From Thermomonas flagellata (lineage in GTDB: Bacteria; Pseudomonadota; Gammaproteobacteria; Xanthomonadales; Xanthomonadaceae): a stretch of 64,000 bases of DNA. The translations under genes and the position numbers were made by a program. Below, piece after piece: positions 57,876 to 64,000 of this stretch; within the stretch, counting starts at the first letter, position 1, and each line of letters starts with the position of its first letter. The notes beneath the pieces are model-generated. The model saw only the letters and a program-made list of their open reading frames with translations. It did not search any database and had not been told where the DNA came from. The stretch covers positions 62,001 through 126,000 of the forward strand of contig NZ_JAJOZK010000007.1 of the NCBI RefSeq assembly GCF_022419185.1, written 5' to 3'.

Positions 57876-60218
57876 ATGACGGGTCATCGCAAGGGCGCCC
57901 TCGCGGGCGCCGCAGTTGGTTTGTTGTCCTTCACTCTGGCCGCGCTGGCGGCTTCCCCCGGCGGATCCGCTGTCCGGACCGCCCCTGCCCCGCTTCCCAC
58001 CCGTGCCGCGCCGGTCGCCAGCCATGTCGGCGTGCCGCAGGACTGGAGCCAGCGCGCGGTGGTGTATGCCGACCCGCTGCTGCCCGGCGCCACTGCGGAC
58101 GCCCGCCTCGGCGGGGCCGGCTGGGACGTGCGCTACCGCGACCCGCGCTATCTGCTGTCGATGGCCAAACGGCTGCAGGCCGAGGCCGGCGCGGTGCCCG
58201 CAGCCATGGCTTACGCCGCGCCCAGTGCGCTGCAGGCCAGTGCGACCCGTGACGTGCGCCATCGCCGCAGCCCCAACACGCCGCCTCCCGCCACCAGTTC
58301 CCTGCAGCGCGACTGGAGCAACGTGCTCGGCGGCGGCCCCAACGGCCAGGGCGGGCGCGGCTCGCTCAACCTGTTCCCGGCCAAGTACAGCTACGACATC
58401 TTCGCCGCGCCGAACTGCACCAACGATTTCGTGGTCTATCCGACCGTCGCGCCGGGTGCCAATTCCAGCGGCAGCCGCGAGCAGTGGGTCGGCACCTTCA
58501 CCGGCAATCCGGGCAACGGCAACACTGTCACCATCGGCAGTGCCATGCCGCGCCAGGTGGTGCTGACCGCCAGCGCCAGCGACAACACCGGCACCAATTT
58601 CCAGAACCCCAACAACAACAACACCCGGGCCGCCAACCTGGCGGCGGCGATCAACCGCTACAGCAGCCAGACCGGTTTCACTGCGGTCGCCAGCGGCGCC
58701 CAGGTCACCATATATTCGGAAACCACGGGGAACGTGACCAACAGCCTGGTCAGCGAGACCCTCAACAACTTCAGCCTCACCCGCACAAACGGCACCGGCA
58801 CGGCCGGCCAACCCACCATCGTCGCCTTCAACCAGCTCTACCAGGGCCAGTGCAACGGCCCATGGAACCAGAACGGTGCGATCAAGGCGCCGAACGTCCT
58901 GTGGGCCTACAACACCGGCAACGGCTACACGGTCGAGACCTCGCCGGTGCTGTCCTACCACGACGATGCGCGCCAGGTCGCATTCGTGCAGCGCAACGGC
59001 AACACCCTGCAACTGGTGCTGCTGAAGTGGGCCGCCGGCCAGGGCACCGCCGCCAGCCCGGCCACCCCGGCCACCGTGGCCACCAGCGGCGCCGCCTACG
59101 CCGCCGCGCGCGCCGGCAGCGGCAGCGCGATGCTGGCGCTGACCTTCAGCGGCACCAGCAATACCGACGGCCAGGCGACCTTCTCCTCGCCCTACGTGGA
59201 CTACGCCGCCGACGTGCTGTGGGTCGGCGACGGCAACGGCCGCCTGCACAAGTTCACCGGGGTGTTCCAAGGCGTGCCGACCGAAGTCACCACCGGCGGG
59301 TTCCCGGCCACGGTCGAGGCCGGCATGAAGCTGTCCTCGCCGGTGGCCTTCGCCGGCCAGGTGTACGTCGGCAGCCAGAGCGGCGGTGCCGGTATCGGCG
59401 GCAAGCTGCACCGGGTGGATGCCAGCACCGGCAGCGTGGTCAGCGGTGCCAAGCTCGCGTTCGACAACACCACCGGCCTGCGCGACAGCGTGTTGGTGGA
59501 CGCCAATACCGGCAGCGTGTTCGGCTTCCTGTTCAGCACGCCCATCGCCAGTGACCAGCCCACCTGCACGATCAGCCCGAGCACTAATGGCCTGACCAAT
59601 GCGTGCCGTGCGGTAGTGCGTTATCCGCTCACCTTCGCCGCCGGCGCGCCGCCGGCCGAGATCGCCTATGTCGGCCGCGGCAACAGCACGGTCAGCACGC
59701 TGTACGCCGGGATGTTCGACGAGGCCTACTACAGCAGCCCGACCGGCACCGGGGCGCTCTACATCGTCGGTGGTGCCAGCAACGACACATTCGTTCCGAC
59801 CCTGTGGAAGATCCCGCTGGTCAACGGCGCGATGGGCACTCCGGTCATCGGGCCGGTGGTCGGCCTCAACGACTGCAACACGGTCGGCGACTGCCTGACC
59901 AACAACTGGGATTGGTCGCCGGTGACCGTGATCAAGAACGGCAGCCGCGAGTTCCTCTACTTCAGCATGGCCAAGAAGGCCAACCTGCCGGCCACCGGCT
60001 GCACCGGCGACTGCCTGTACATGTTCGACGTCGCCAGCGGCCCGTGGTCGCCCAGCCTGGCCCCCGGCGCCGGCCTGCCGACCTTCGGCGGCACCAGCGG
60101 GATCGTGGTGGACAACATCAGCAGTTCCCCCGGCGCCTCGCAGGTGTATTTCAGCCATGGCGGCAACGTCAACGGCACCGGCAACGCGGTGCAAGCCAGC
60201 CAGGCCGGGCTGCTCTGA
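57876..60218 (+). CDS. large secreted protein, probable beta-propeller
   Basis: A 780-aa protein with a Sec signal peptide (ALAGAAVGLLSFTLAALAAS). The start at 57876 is favoured by TTAGGAGATGCC just upstream. Residues 75-170 are a linker; then an Asn/Thr-rich domain (TNDFVVYPTVAPGANSSGSR, NNNNTRAANLAAAINRYSSQ). From about residue 320 repeated strands such as NVLWAYNTGNGYTVETSPVL, DVLWVGDGNGRLHKFTGVF, GKLHRVDASTGSVVSG and ADVASGPWSPSL-like segments suggest a PQQ/PilY1-type propeller. Several Cys are paired at short spacing (CTGDC). It ends QASQAGLL. Unusually Asn-rich and less GC-biased than neighbours. It precedes a RiPP-like cluster and shares its ribosome binding site sequence; function unknown. 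Confidence 0.8.
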   Translation: MTGHRKGALAGAAVGLLSFTLAALAASPGGSAVRTAPAPLPTRAAPVASHVGVPQDWSQRAVVYADPLLPGATADARLGGAGWDVRYRDPRYLLSMAKRLQAEAGAVPAAMAYAAPSALQASATRDVRHRRSPNTPPPATSSLQRDWSNVLGGGPNGQGGRGSLNLFPAKYSYDIFAAPNCTNDFVVYPTVAPGANSSGSREQWVGTFTGNPGNGNTVTIGSAMPRQVVLTASASDNTGTNFQNPNNNNTRAANLAAAINRYSSQTGFTAVASGAQVTIYSETTGNVTNSLVSETLNNFSLTRTNGTGTAGQPTIVAFNQLYQGQCNGPWNQNGAIKAPNVLWAYNTGNGYTVETSPVLSYHDDARQVAFVQRNGNTLQLVLLKWAAGQGTAASPATPATVATSGAAYAAARAGSGSAMLALTFSGTSNTDGQATFSSPYVDYAADVLWVGDGNGRLHKFTGVFQGVPTEVTTGGFPATVEAGMKLSSPVAFAGQVYVGSQSGGAGIGGKLHRVDASTGSVVSGAKLAFDNTTGLRDSVLVDANTGSVFGFLFSTPIASDQPTCTISPSTNGLTNACRAVVRYPLTFAAGAPPAEIAYVGRGNSTVSTLYAGMFDEAYYSSPTGTGALYIVGGASNDTFVPTLWKIPLVNGAMGTPVIGPVVGLNDCNTVGDCLTNNWDWSPVTVIKNGSREFLYFSMAKKANLPATGCTGDCLYMFDVASGPWSPSLAPGAGLPTFGGTSGIVVDNISSSPGASQVYFSHGGNVNGTGNAVQASQAGLL

Positions 60219-60341: not shown

Positions 60342-60373
60342 CTCATCAAGCCCAATCGATAGGAGATGCCATC

Positions 60374-60541
60374 GTGAAGGATCAGCAGCACGCCACAGCC
60401 CCGCAGCAGGGGCAGTTCGAGCGCCTTCCGTACCAGAAGCCGGCCTTCCAGCACGAGCCTGTGTTCGAGACCATGGCCCTGGCCTGCGGCAAGGTCAACA
60501 TCACCCAGCAAGCCTGCCGCGGCCGCCGCAACGCGTCCTGA
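60374..60541 (+). CDS. putative RiPP precursor peptide
   Basis: A 55-residue peptide with a GTG start preceded by TAGGAGATGCC. The N-terminal half is Gln-rich (KDQQHATAPQQGQFERLPYQ), then KPAFQHEPVFETMALACGK and the C-terminal CGKVNITQQACRGRRNAS. There are two cysteines, C38 and C48. The layout (hydrophilic leader with a YxKPxF...FET element, short Cys-bearing tail, next to PqqD and a radical SAM enzyme) is typical of a RiPP precursor. ALA directly before C38 is a signal-peptidase-like -3/-1 motif. Several reading frames overlap, but this one has the site spacing and context. The ripening chemistry is unknown. Confidence 0.75.
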   Translation: MKDQQHATAPQQGQFERLPYQKPAFQHEPVFETMALACGKVNITQQACRGRRNAS

Positions 60542-60624
60542 GGATTCGATCCACGCCGGCGACCCGCGACGGCGCCCGCCTTCAGCTGGCGCAGGACAGC
60601 CTGCGCCAATCCGGAGTGCTACGG

Positions 60625-61008
60625 ATGCGCGCCTATGGCAGCAGCATGCTGCCGGCGATCCAGCCGGGCGACGAGCTGGTGTTCGCGCCGGTCGCCGCGG
60701 AGGGCCTGCGGCTCGGGCAGATCGTGCTGCTGCGCCAGAGGGACGCGCTGCGCGTGCATCGGATCGTGGCGATCGGGGCGGACGCCATCGTGACCCAGGG
60801 GGACAGCCTCCGCCACCGCGACGGCGCCATTGCCCTGCATGATGTCCTCGGCGTGCTGGTGGCGCAGTCGCGCGCCGGCCGCGCCCTGCCACCGCCCCAC
60901 GGTCCGGCGCGCTGGCGCACCCGCCTCGCCCGCTGGCTGCTGCGCCATCTGCCCGGCGCACGCCGGGTGGCCGTCCGTTTTCCCCGCCTGAGCGACCTGC
61001 TGCGATGA
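60625..61008 (+). CDS. S24/S26 (ER/SipW-type) signal peptidase homologue
   Basis: About 127 aa from ATG 60625, which has GGAG 8 bases upstream; GTG 60616 is an alternative, and the frame is open back to 60319, where it would overlap the precursor. Catalytic Ser7 is in YGSSMLPAIQPGDELVF and His45 in LRVHRIVAIGADAIVTQGDS, so it has the Ser-His arrangement of ER-type signal peptidases (Sec11, SipW) rather than the Ser-Lys of LepB. No transmembrane segment precedes the domain, so it is probably cytosolic. Its place right after the precursor suggests leader removal. The stop overlaps the kinase gene as ATGA. Confidence 0.8.
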   Translation: MRAYGSSMLPAIQPGDELVFAPVAAEGLRLGQIVLLRQRDALRVHRIVAIGADAIVTQGDSLRHRDGAIALHDVLGVLVAQSRAGRALPPPHGPARWRTRLARWLLRHLPGARRVAVRFPRLSDLLR

Positions 61009-61838
61009 CCACCGCTCCTGCCCCGTTTCCGCTGGACATCGGCATCGGCGGCATCAACGTGCGCCTGGAGACCCAATCGCCGGACTTCGCCCAGATGATG
61101 GCCGCGCGCTTCCGCGGCTTCACCGCCCCGACCGGCGCACCGCACTACGTGTTCGACACCGAAGTGGTGCCCCTGGGTACGCCGGACCCGGTGCTGGACG
61201 GCACTACCACCGAGGTTGGCGTGCACCGCGAGGGCAGCGCCTGGCGCCTGACCTGCGGCGACTTCGAGGCCCGCTTCGACCCGCGCGCCGGGCGCGGCCG
61301 GGTGCGCCTGCACCCGAGCCCGTACTCGCTCGACACCGTGCTGCGCATCCTCCACACGGTGCTGCTGGCCGAGGAAGGCGGGATGCTGATGCACGCCTCC
61401 AGCGCCGTGCTGGACGGCCGCGCCTGGCTGTTCACCGGCGTCTCCGGCTCGGGCAAGACCACGATCTCGCGCCTGGCCCCGCGCGATGCCCGGGTGCTGA
61501 CCGACGAGATGTCGTTCGTTCGCCGCGATCCTGCCGGCGGCTACCGCGCCCACGGCACCCCGTTCGCGGGCGAGCTGTCCACCCCGGGCGAGAACACCAG
61601 CGCCCCGCTGGCCGGCATCTTCCTGCTGGCCAAGGGCGAGCAGAACCGGATCGACCCGCTGCCGCCGGCGCAGGCCGTGCGCACCCTGCTGGCGAACGTG
61701 CTCTACTTCGCGCGCGACGACGCCCTGACCGCACGCGTGTTCGACAATGCCATCGCGCTGGCGGCCGCGGTGCCGGTCCGCCGGCTGACCTTCTACCCCG
61801 ACCACCGCGTGTGGGATCTGCTGCGAGCCTCCGCATGA
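61005..61838 (+). CDS. HprK-related kinase
   Basis: A 277-aa protein related to the HPr kinase C-terminal domain. The P-loop is GVSGSGKTT (residues 145-153) in WLFTGVSGSGKTTISRLAPRDARVLTDEMSFV, followed by the Walker-B-like DEM and HGTPFAGELSTPGENTSAPLAGIFLLAKGE. No HPr protein or PTS gene is near. HprK-related proteins occur in several RiPP clusters together with PqqD-type proteins; phosphorylation of the precursor (Thr33, Thr44 or Ser55) or an ATP-driven accessory step are possibilities. Coupled by ATGA overlaps on both sides. Confidence 0.85.
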   Translation: MTTAPAPFPLDIGIGGINVRLETQSPDFAQMMAARFRGFTAPTGAPHYVFDTEVVPLGTPDPVLDGTTTEVGVHREGSAWRLTCGDFEARFDPRAGRGRVRLHPSPYSLDTVLRILHTVLLAEEGGMLMHASSAVLDGRAWLFTGVSGSGKTTISRLAPRDARVLTDEMSFVRRDPAGGYRAHGTPFAGELSTPGENTSAPLAGIFLLAKGEQNRIDPLPPAQAVRTLLANVLYFARDDALTARVFDNAIALAAAVPVRRLTFYPDHRVWDLLRASA

Positions 61839-62137
61839 CCGAGCCGACCTACATCCTCCGTTCCCCGCAGGTGGCCGCGCGCCGGATCGGCGACGAACTG
61901 ATGATCATGTCCGGGCAGGCGTCCGCGGTGTTCAGCCTGAACGAGACCGCGGCCCTGCTGTGGGACGCCGCCGATGGCCGCACCCCGCTGCAGGAGATCG
62001 TGCGCACCCGGATCTGCCCACGCTACGCGGTGGATGTGGACACGGCCCTGGCCGATGCGCTGGAGCTGGTGCAGGGGCTGGCCGGGCATGGCATCCTGCA
62101 GGTGGCCGACCGGCCGTTCGCGGAGACCGACGGATGA
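61835..62137 (+). CDS. PqqD-like RiPP recognition element protein
   Basis: A 100-aa stand-alone PqqD domain. It contains the pattern YILRSPQVAARRIGDELMIMSGQASAVFSLNETAALLWDAADGRTPLQEIVR, with the conserved S-L-N-E-T-A-x-x-L-W core and a winged-helix end (VDVDTALADALELVQGLAGHGILQV). PqqD proteins bind the leader and hand the precursor to the modifying enzyme. It overlaps the kinase and the radical SAM gene by four bases each, so the three are made in equal amounts. Confidence 0.9.
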   Translation: MTEPTYILRSPQVAARRIGDELMIMSGQASAVFSLNETAALLWDAADGRTPLQEIVRTRICPRYAVDVDTALADALELVQGLAGHGILQVADRPFAETDG

Positions 62138-63219
62138 GCGTGATGGAGACCATGGCCACCCGCGCGATGGCGCTGGGCATCCCGCTGGCCGTGCAGGTGG
62201 ACCTGACCTACCGCTGCAACGAGCGCTGCATCCACTGCTACCTCGACCACGAGGACCACGGCGAGCTGCGCACCGATGAAGTGCTCGGCCTGCTCGACCA
62301 ACTGGCCGAGGCCGGCACCTTCTTCCTCAACCTCAGCGGCGGCGAGATCTTCATGCGCCCGGACCTGTTCGAGATCATCGAACACGCGCGCCGGCGGCAG
62401 TTCTCGGTCAAGCTCAAGACCAACGGGGTGATGATCCGCGCGGCCAAGGCCCGGCGTCTGGCGCAGCTGGGCATCGAATCGGTGCAGATCAGCCTGTACT
62501 CGCACGATGCCGAGACCCACGACGCGATCACCAAGCTGCCCGGCTCGTTCAAGCGCAGCGTGGAGGCCGCGCGCCTACTGCGCGAGGCCGGGATCAAGGT
62601 GATCTTCGCCAACGTGCTGATGGCGCAGAACGCCGACCACTACAAACAGGTGCAGGCGCTGGCGGAGGCCATGGGCGTGCGCTACGAGGTGGACGCCACG
62701 ATCACCCCGATGCTGGACGGCGACCGCACCCCGGTCGCGCTGAACATGGACGGCGAGCGCCTGCGCGGCATCCTGCACGACACCTCGCTGCTGGGCGACC
62801 AGGCCGAGCGCTTCCTCGCCCCCCCGTCCGGCCCGACCCCGCTGGAGGAGGCCTACGAGACCCTGCCCTGCAGCGCCGGCCACACCGCCTGCTATGTCTC
62901 CCCGTATGGCGACGTGTACCCCTGCGTGCAGTTCCCGTACAAGGTGGGCAATATCCGCGAGCAGCGCTTCCTGGACATCTGGCGCGACTCCCCGCAGCTC
63001 AACGAGGTGCGCGCGATCCGGGTGTCGGACCTGGAAGGCTGCTCGAGCTGCGTGCATGGCAGCAGTTGCACCCGCTGCCCGGGGCTGGCCTACCTGGAAG
63101 GCAACATGCGCGGGCCATCGACCCAGGACTGCGAGAAGTCCTTCGCGCGCACCGGGGTGCCCTCGCGCAACCTGCTGCGCAAGCAGGGGCGCAGCATCCC
63201 GCTGGTGGTGGTGGAATGA
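62134..63219 (+). CDS. radical SAM/SPASM peptide-modifying enzyme
   Basis: A 361-aa radical SAM enzyme. The [4Fe-4S] Cx3Cx2C motif is C28-NER-C32-IH-C35, followed by the SAM-contacting LSGGEIFMRPDLF. The C-terminal SPASM region is Cys-rich: C246, C253, C264 (CYVSPYGDVYPCVQFPYKVGNI) and then CSSCVHGSSCTRCPG ... QDC, enough for two auxiliary clusters. Such enzymes install carbon-carbon or thioether bonds in RiPPs, or mature quinone cofactors. Substrate is inferred to be the 55-residue peptide. It is the last gene of the cluster; no transporter follows. Confidence 0.93.
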   Translation: MSVMETMATRAMALGIPLAVQVDLTYRCNERCIHCYLDHEDHGELRTDEVLGLLDQLAEAGTFFLNLSGGEIFMRPDLFEIIEHARRRQFSVKLKTNGVMIRAAKARRLAQLGIESVQISLYSHDAETHDAITKLPGSFKRSVEAARLLREAGIKVIFANVLMAQNADHYKQVQALAEAMGVRYEVDATITPMLDGDRTPVALNMDGERLRGILHDTSLLGDQAERFLAPPSGPTPLEEAYETLPCSAGHTACYVSPYGDVYPCVQFPYKVGNIREQRFLDIWRDSPQLNEVRAIRVSDLEGCSSCVHGSSCTRCPGLAYLEGNMRGPSTQDCEKSFARTGVPSRNLLRKQGRSIPLVVVE

Positions 63220-63365: not shown

Positions 63366-64000
63366 TCAATCGCGCAACAGCCAGCGGAACAGCGCAATCG
63401 CGCGCGCGCGGTCGCGGCTGAGCCAATACCAGCCGATGCACAACGCCACATAGGCCAACAGCAGCAGCGGATGCGGCACGTGCAGGCGCATCGCCAGCCC
63501 CGCCGCCAGCCCGCACAGCAGGCTGAACACCGTCAGCCAGACCGCGGCGCGGGTCGCGCCGAAGCCGGCGTCCTGCATCAGGTGGTGGATATGGTCGCGC
63601 CCGGCGGCGAACGGCGAGCGCCCCTCCTGCAGCCGGCGCACGATCAGCACCAGGGTGTCCATCACCGGCACCGGCACCAGCCACAGCGCCAGCACCGGGT
63701 TGACCGGATGCCCGGGATTCTGGGTCAGGCGGAACGCGACCCAGGCGATCACCAGGCCAAGGAAGCCGCTGCCGGCATTGCCCATGAAGATCCGTGCCCG
63801 CGGCCGCCAGGGGAAGCGCAGGTTCCACAGCAGGAACCCGGCCAGCGCGCCGCACAGGATCGCCACCCGCTGCGCCAGCCCGAAGTTGCCCGCATACACC
63901 GCCGCCGCGGCGAGCATCACCAGCGCCGCCAGCCCGAGCAGCCCGGCCAGCCCGTCGGCGCCGTCGATCATGTTCATGGCGTTGATCAGGCCGACGGTGG
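63366..64000 (-). CDS. glycosyl-1-phosphate transferase, WecA/MraY family (5' end beyond window)
   Basis: C-terminal part of an undecaprenyl-phosphate sugar-1-phosphate transferase. The frame enters at base 64000 and shows NAMNMIDGADGLAGLLGLAAL, the catalytic loop of WecA-type enzymes, then RIFMGNAGSGFLGLVIAWVAF and the conserved GRDHIHHLMQDAGF near the C-terminus. MGNAGS replaces the MGDAGS of E. coli WecA. At least six transmembrane helices are visible. It starts O-antigen or exopolysaccharide synthesis by loading a sugar phosphate onto the lipid carrier. Convergent with the RiPP-like cluster. Confidence 0.92.
   Translation of the reverse strand, partial: TVGLINAMNMIDGADGLAGLLGLAALVMLAAAAVYAGNFGLAQRVAILCGALAGFLLWNLRFPWRPRARIFMGNAGSGFLGLVIAWVAFRLTQNPGHPVNPVLALWLVPVPVMDTLVLIVRRLQEGRSPFAAGRDHIHHLMQDAGFGATRAAVWLTVFSLLCGLAAGLAMRLHVPHPLLLLAYVALCIGWYWLSRDRARAIALFRWLLRD

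Follow-up and report, generated by a model that had tools for sequence, protein, structure and literature searches.

A probable radical SAM peptide-maturation cassette with LPP-like processing genes and a candidate secreted beta-propeller-like partner in Thermomonas and Acidobacteriota

We analyzed a 64,000-nucleotide stretch of the Thermomonas flagellata genome (the window; contig NZ_JAJOZK010000007.1, positions 62,001 to 126,000), taken from a 2.5 Mb assembly that is 99.9% complete (G000 in our numbering). Near the end of the window lies a six-gene unit that joins two logics of ribosomally synthesized and post-translationally modified peptides (RiPPs), namely modification by a radical S-adenosylmethionine (SAM) enzyme and the kinase and signal-peptidase processing of linear polyphosphorylated peptides (LPPs) and lasso peptides (Table 1). 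An initial annotation had described five adjacent plus-strand genes, and we confirmed all of them: a small precursor peptide, an endoplasmic reticulum (ER)-type signal-peptidase homolog, an HprK-like kinase, a PqqD-type protein, and a radical SAM enzyme. The ATGA overlaps said to link the last four genes are present at all three junctions (61005, 61835, and 62134). The gene upstream of the peptide, which was overlooked at that stage, is the sixth member of the set, and it encodes a protein with a likely beta-propeller fold. No published description of this gene combination was recognized in our literature searches.

Table 1. Genes and features of the cassette and the nearby exporter gene (window positions unless a contig is named).
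Feature	Position	Strand	Comment
Secreted beta-propeller-like partner protein (predicted)	57876..60218	+	780 amino acids from ATG; P0006 is the same frame, three codons longer at the front
AGGAG ribosome-binding site of peptide gene	60361..60365	+	Read directly; 8 bases upstream of the GTG start
Precursor peptide gene	60374-60541	+	GTG start, 55 amino acids
Peptide leader	60374..60472	+	33 amino acids, ends ...YQKPAFQHEPVFET; end at FET predicted from the LPP cleavage site
Predicted core	60473..60538	+	22 amino acids, MALACGKVNITQQACRGRRNAS; predicted boundary
Cys codons of core	60485-60487, 60515-60517	+	
C-terminal Ser codon	60536-60538	+	
ER/archaeal-type signal-peptidase homolog (S24/S26)	60538..61008	+	Predicted leader peptidase; start codon uncertain
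HprK-like kinase	61005..61838	+	Predicted target: C-terminal Ser
PqqD-type RiPP recognition element	61835..62137	+	PF05402
Radical SAM/SPASM peptide maturase	62134..63219	+	PF04055, PF13186
MsbA-like ABC exporter	G000:C3:126523-128202 (L090 10521-12203)	Convergent with radical SAM gene	PF00664 + PF00005; just past window end

We collected 29 distinct radical SAM loci, comprising 13 that matched at 1e-100 or better, another 6 from a search of 396 Acidobacteriota genomes, and 10 in the window genus, and these come from that genus, one Burkholderiales metagenome-assembled genome (MAG), and Acidobacteriota. Radical SAM matches in G297, G300, and G302, three more in all and scoring 1e-47 to 1e-50, were left out of this set. 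A search of 296 genomes of the family with the window enzyme as query gave matches at 1e-80 in five, all within the window genus, and the same query recovered 11 loci from a contig collection, one in the Burkholderiales MAG and ten in Acidobacteriota. With a family profile, matches were found in 6/396 genomes of Acidobacteriota (the phylum of G300) and 1/398 in a sample of the window's phylum, both at 1e-120, and in 9/25 genomes of the genus at 1e-60. Because so few genomes match, the cassette is rare and patchy, yet it appears to span two phyla. Plasmid searches returned zero propeller matches and a single distant match to the radical SAM enzyme, at 32.5% identity. The peptide gene adjoins the enzyme genes at 27 of the 29 loci; the other two are L046, where none was seen alongside, and L017/L049, where the contig ends within the radical SAM gene. 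Loss of the peptide frame from related genomes had been named beforehand as what would refute a RiPP pathway, and we found the frame kept at those 27 loci.

The peptides share a small set of fixed positions. All 27 have two core Cys residues and a final Ser; 26 of them were aligned, and that of L047, which fell outside the regular expression used for the alignment and came from a pattern search that imposed no final-Ser requirement, was counted separately. Invariant in the 26 aligned peptides are Glu22, Phe25, Ala29, Leu30, Cys32, and Lys34 (alignment columns), together with the final Ser. Tyr14 and Pro17 are present in all 25 that are long enough to reach those columns, as the N terminus of the L007 peptide is truncated by the contig start. 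The second Cys occurs in every peptide, with a one-column shift in L016. The leader of the window peptide reads YxKPxFxxExVFET, and its Y, P, and Ex[VI]F features are kept across the alignment, while in the FET region the F is invariant and the T is found in 24/26. From the leader Tyr through CGK, the ratio of nonsynonymous to synonymous differences (pN/pS) is 0.23 in the genus (nine peptides from eight genomes) and likewise 0.23 among 15 Acidobacteriota peptides; the leader block is strongly constrained. For the core after CGK it is 0.79 in the genus and 0.64 in Acidobacteriota, calculated from equal-length pairs only (22/36 and 78/105 pairs, respectively, with L007 and L087 omitted). The recurrence of the peptide beside the enzymes at 27/29 loci and the low pN/pS argue that the association is not due to chance and, together with a PqqD match above its cut-off, support the original assignment to a RiPP pathway well. 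The final Ser is the sole invariant hydroxyl residue of the predicted core, and it is encoded by four different codons in the 26 peptides (TCC 9, TCG 8, TCA 7, and TCT 2), which points to selection on the residue itself.

The enzymes retain their expected catalytic residues, although the Pfam matches of the window peptidase and kinase are weak. For the peptidase, Peptidase_S24 scored 0.00096 in the window protein (below cut-off) and 1.7e-8 in its L011 homolog (above cut-off), while the best NCBIfam match was TIGR02228 (sigpep_I_arch; 3.2e-5, below cut-off). The best PDB match of the family profile was human SEC11A/C (3.3e-8), and S36, H74, D89, and D95 are invariant in 11 sequences. A peptidase gene is present at all 27 peptide loci (26 long frames and one fragment, at L018). 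Its start in the window is uncertain because there is zero ATG, GTG, or TTG in frame between the peptide stop and codon 60616; the candidates are CTG at 60538, in a CTGA overlap with the peptide stop, and ATT at 60544. The kinase was matched best among NCBIfam models by ScmC (TIGR04249; 3.7e-12, below the model cut-off), followed by HprK-related kinases B and A at 2-3e-4, and its profile gave a weak match to phosphoenolpyruvate carboxykinase in the PDB (0.006). Its H130, K151 (in the P-loop), D167, and D266 are invariant in 11 sequences, and the gene is found at 25/27 peptide loci, compared with 27/27 for PqqD. The window PqqD protein matches PF05402 at 1e-13, above cut-off. The radical SAM enzyme matches Radical_SAM (PF04055, 9.7e-24) and SPASM (PF13186, 1.8e-12), both above the Pfam cut-offs, and in an alignment of 14 sequences, from which L005 (the G212 gene with an internal TGA) and the partial L017 were omitted (alignment A1), its CxxxCxxC motif (C28/C32/C35) is invariant. 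So are C246, C264, C303, C306, C312, C315, and C333 in the SPASM region, which we take to be the SPASM cysteine pattern. None of the best 25 of 76 NCBIfam models reached its cut-off for this enzyme; the mycofactocin maturase model covered residues 13-324 of 361 at 5.3e-42, below cut-off. Its closest solved relatives in the PDB are SkfB and PqqE, of which SkfB is the nearest.

The sixth gene provides a clean genetic lead that connects a RiPP with one specific secreted protein. At 1e-25, the propeller family was found in 6/396 Acidobacteriota genomes, and at 1e-15 in 9/25 genomes of the genus, in each case the identical set of genomes that carry the radical SAM gene. If kinship is ignored, identical sets would arise by chance with a probability of about 2e-13 for Acidobacteriota and 5e-7 for the genus; relatedness and linkage raise the true values. 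The propeller gene lies upstream on the same strand at 19 of the 29 loci, downstream on the same strand at four (L042, L044, L047, and L048), and convergent downstream at one (L015). It was not seen in the available stretch of the remaining five, among which L007, L084, and L017/L049 end at a contig edge. In G571, the propeller genes and the cassette are on different contigs, and G300, G379, and G390 hold extra propeller copies on other contigs; we found no peptide match within 12-18 kb around these off-cassette genes. The protein begins with a hydrophobic stretch that, by eye, resembles a signal sequence. An alignment of ten sequences plus further copies revealed two conserved motifs, D-W-S close to the N terminus and QASQAxL at the C terminus (alignments A2 and A5 omit the propellers of L018-L021 and of later loci). 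Foldseek and PDB profile matches were to generic propellers, BamB, quinoprotein chains, and propeller chains of large eukaryotic complexes, and the two AlphaFold models gave no specific relative. In L086 (G1094) and L087 (G1093), a tandem pair of propeller genes stands upstream of a single cassette, the outer one clipped by the contig end.

The enzyme core of the cassette has a precedent in the LPPs of Bacillota, which are encoded by lppAKBSDN (PMC13381572, Nat Commun 2026). That set comprises the SpI-like peptidase LppS (Ser29, His68, and Asp93), the RiPP recognition element (RRE) LppB, the HprK kinase LppK, the nucleoside triphosphate (NTP) transferase LppN, and the exporter LppD (PMC13381572). 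Both systems have a SipW/SpI-like peptidase with catalytic Ser, His, and Asp, a discrete RRE, an HprK-like kinase, and a YxxP leader ending in FET, and the window cassette adjoins polysaccharide genes, as LPP loci often do. The LPP leader motif, YxxPxVLxHQxIxFETxxS, is two residues longer, with an L and an HQ, the latter lacking from the window leader; LppS cuts it after F-3 E-2 T-1 and requires LppB (PMC13381572). As the window leader likewise ends in FET, we predict cleavage there, between YQKPAFQHEPVFET and MALACGKVNITQQACRGRRNAS. An alternative cut between ALA and C, resembling a signal peptidase site, was dropped in favor of FET given the LPP cleavage data, and it is also weakened by a Phe at position -1 in L012. 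The initial annotation had found no dedicated protease of the usual families, but by analogy with LppS (PMC13381572) the ER-type peptidase very probably removes the leader in this cassette. In a review devoted to the proteases that remove RiPP leaders (PMC10885120), the main text does not contain the term "signal peptidase". The statement that the gene set matches no known RiPP class thus holds in part, since the peptidase, RRE, and HprK core matches the LPP class, whereas the radical SAM enzyme and the propeller are unmatched. What is new is the radical SAM enzyme, a two-Cys core with an invariant C-terminal Ser, and the propeller. The word "radical" does not occur in the main text of PMC13381572, and the core set named there includes no propeller; its authors describe LPPs as restricted to Bacillota.

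A second resemblance is to the phosphorylated lasso peptides paeninodin and pseudomycoidin, which resemble the cassette in having an HprK-like kinase, a conserved C-terminal Ser as its target (a predicted one here), and an NTP transferase homolog (here nearby rather than in the cassette) (PMC9266682), as well as a Y/WxxP leader and an RRE (PMC13381572). The lasso kinases target this conserved Ser, and the nucleotidyltransferase homolog PsmN is reportedly needed to place a hexose on it (PMC9266682); an invariant core hydroxyl at the very C terminus fits this type of kinase. However, the window cassette has a radical SAM enzyme in place of the lasso genes. The lasso B2 peptidase (PF13471) was absent from 8 of the 10 genomes searched, including G000, with G081 and G237 positive, and no Asn_synthase match lay inside the cassettes of the 10 genomes searched, with the nearest one in G000 located 9.2 kb beyond the radical SAM gene. 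The SynChlorMet cassette (TIGR04248-TIGR04251) is similar in having the HprK-like ScmC, the PqqD-type ScmD, and the SPASM radical SAM proteins ScmE and ScmF, but it has two radical SAM proteins, and all of its models scored below cut-off here (ScmC 46.2/125, ScmD 13.3/100, ScmE 110.6/400, and ScmF 92/400 bits). To our knowledge, neither an ER-type peptidase nor a propeller is part of that cassette.

From the genes observed, their conservation and joint occurrence, and the catalytic residues they retain, we consider it reasonably probable that these genes form a RiPP maturation cassette that follows LPP and phospho-lasso logic, adds a radical SAM step, and is dedicated to the secreted beta-propeller-like protein. 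In this scheme the chemistry and cut site are inferred from related families, and the export route and propeller interaction are proposed. The PqqD protein would bind the YxKPxF leader, and the SPASM enzyme would cross-link or otherwise modify the two-Cys core, most likely through a Cys thioether, since SkfB is the nearest solved relative. Cys-to-carbon thioethers formed by SPASM radical SAM enzymes characterize sactipeptides and ranthipeptides, and the observations that bear on such a product here are the invariant radical SAM and SPASM-region cysteines in 14 sequences and the relation to SkfB. The HprK-like kinase would phosphorylate the invariant C-terminal Ser, and the ER-type peptidase would cut after FET to release the 22-residue core. 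An NTP transferase may decorate the peptide before export, possibly through the MsbA-like ATP-binding cassette (ABC) exporter just past the window, and the mature peptide might then work together with the propeller protein, or act on it, once outside the cytoplasm, by analogy with the small subunit of quinohemoprotein amine dehydrogenase (QHNDH; PMC7876137).

Part of this evidence would also suit an ordinary secreted RiPP, such as a bacteriocin, signal, or surface peptide, with the propeller as receptor, immunity factor, or co-selected neighbor rather than a protein matured or completed by the peptide. The authors of the LPP study took the patchiness of LPPs and paeninodin as typical of biological conflict (PMC13381572), and the cassette is equally patchy (6/396, 1/398, and 9/25 genomes). 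Its core is more variable than its leader, and the window copy sits beside a polysaccharide region (GT4, ManC, and epimerase), as described for LPP loci. We nevertheless regard this as unlikely, because the extra peptide-less propeller genes of G300, G379, G390, and G571 are unlike one-to-one immunity and the Cys, GK, Cys, and Ser positions lack the hypervariability of bacteriocins.

A more specific form of a cassette dedicated to the propeller protein, which we put forward tentatively and at less than even odds, is that the radical-SAM-modified, C-terminally (poly)phosphorylated RiPP is no free natural product but serves a secreted beta-propeller family as its dedicated prosthetic peptide or subunit, an LPP-like pathway having been turned into a protein-maturation system in the window genus and Acidobacteriota. 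In the maturation of QHNDH by QhpC, QhpD, QhpE, and QhpF, a small Cys-bearing polypeptide receives cross-links from a radical SAM enzyme in the cytoplasm, loses its leader to a protease, and joins its partner subunits in the periplasm (PMC7876137). The likeness we propose extends to a radical SAM enzyme, a Cys-bearing small polypeptide, predicted leader removal, and a candidate partner. QhpC differs in its greater length and in carrying a quinone as well as three Cys-Asp/Glu thioethers, and its pathway uses a subtilisin-like protease and a dedicated ABC exporter, with no kinase named in the parts of that account drawn on here (PMC7876137).

The radical SAM enzyme and the propeller also bring to mind a peptide that is a mere scaffold for a small excised cofactor, as in the pyrroloquinoline quinone (PQQ) and mycofactocin pathways, with the propeller as the enzyme that uses it. 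These pathways combine PqqD, a SPASM enzyme, a peptidase, and a partner protein, a pattern that the cassette gene set fits, and the matches of the radical SAM enzyme include the mycofactocin maturase model (5.3e-42, below cut-off) and, in the PDB, PqqE. The first propeller model has methanol and methylamine dehydrogenase chains among its Foldseek matches, and several propeller genes can accompany a single cassette in a genome. However, PQQ and mycofactocin precursors need a core Tyr, and the core here has no conserved Tyr; nor do we know of a counterpart in those pathways to an invariant C-terminal Ser and a kinase. The propeller matches are also generic, the second model first matching chains of ciliary and ribosome-processing complexes, and overall we find an excised cofactor quite improbable.

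Several observations weigh against a cassette dedicated to the propeller protein and built on LPP and phospho-lasso logic. LPPs are phosphorylated on core Ser3 (PMC13381572), while the predicted core of the window peptide has Leu there, as do 26/26 aligned peptides, and carries its Ser at the C terminus. Since the leader end and peptidase resemble those of LPPs, and the C-terminal Ser is of lasso type without Ser3 or a B2 peptidase, we describe the cassette as resembling both systems and class it as neither. The residue preceding the T of FET is Glu in 19/26 peptides and Val in 7/26, giving FVT in several. L047 and L048 lack the kinase gene but nonetheless keep the final Ser; the genomes of both hold a second, kinase-bearing cassette (L009 and L012), so the kinase could act in trans. 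At L046, the radical SAM, PqqD, and kinase genes are present with neither peptide nor peptidase seen alongside. The radical SAM gene of G212 has an in-frame TGA (L020 6269-7357, minus strand) and looks damaged, and in G081 (L018) the propeller and peptidase frames are fragmented while those of the peptide, PqqD, and the radical SAM enzyme remain open. The co-occurrence of propeller and radical SAM genes may largely reflect linkage, and the pairing rests on the best 5 (radical SAM) or best 3 (propeller) candidates scored per genome in the 396-genome searches, with the genome of L007 outside the propeller search. Both AlphaFold models of the propeller protein are poor (predicted local distance difference test scores of 48 and 54), and the beta-propeller fold, though likely, is for this reason not secure.

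As a separate observation on the kinase-less loci, these second copies (in G298 and G301) have an extra PqqD-like gene upstream of the peptide, at 7562-7930 of L047 (reverse-complemented locus) and 2092-2550 of L048.

The genes beyond the cassette include two further functions known from the LPP set. An NTP transferase and an MsbA-like exporter belong to that set (PMC13381572), and here both are near the window cassette but not inside it. The absence of a transporter from the initial annotation is therefore partly a window-edge effect, as the ABC exporter lies 1.3 kb beyond the radical SAM gene, outside the window. It stands beside ManC and a GT4 glycosyltransferase gene that has its start outside the window and its end at window position 63366; GT4, ManC, and an epimerase form the polysaccharide locus adjoining the cassette, with an NTP_transf_5 gene further on. 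Exporter matches at 1e-90 or better were found in 16/25 genomes of the genus, corresponding to 7/9 with the cassette and 9/16 without, and the closest ones (63-65% identical) only in the cassette genomes G225, G1093, and G1094. NTP_transf_5 genes adjoin, or lie within about 2 kb of, the Acidobacteriota cassettes L008-L013, L043, and L044, and they occur within 5 kb of the cassette in G000, G081, G225, and G237, but also in 6/11 searched genus genomes without it. We therefore rejected both genes as fixed members and, as they are not specific to the cassette, keep them as possible helpers only.

Two genomes of the genus, G081 and G237, also carry lasso-type neighbors (Asn_synthase-like and Transglut_core3) 6-10 kb from the cassette, at G081:C3:19267-23722 and G237:C1:1541520-1543623. 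A co-located lasso cluster, as described for the LPPs of Bacillota (PMC13381572), is possible in these genomes, and in G081 an NTP_transf_5 gene stands beside the lasso-type genes.

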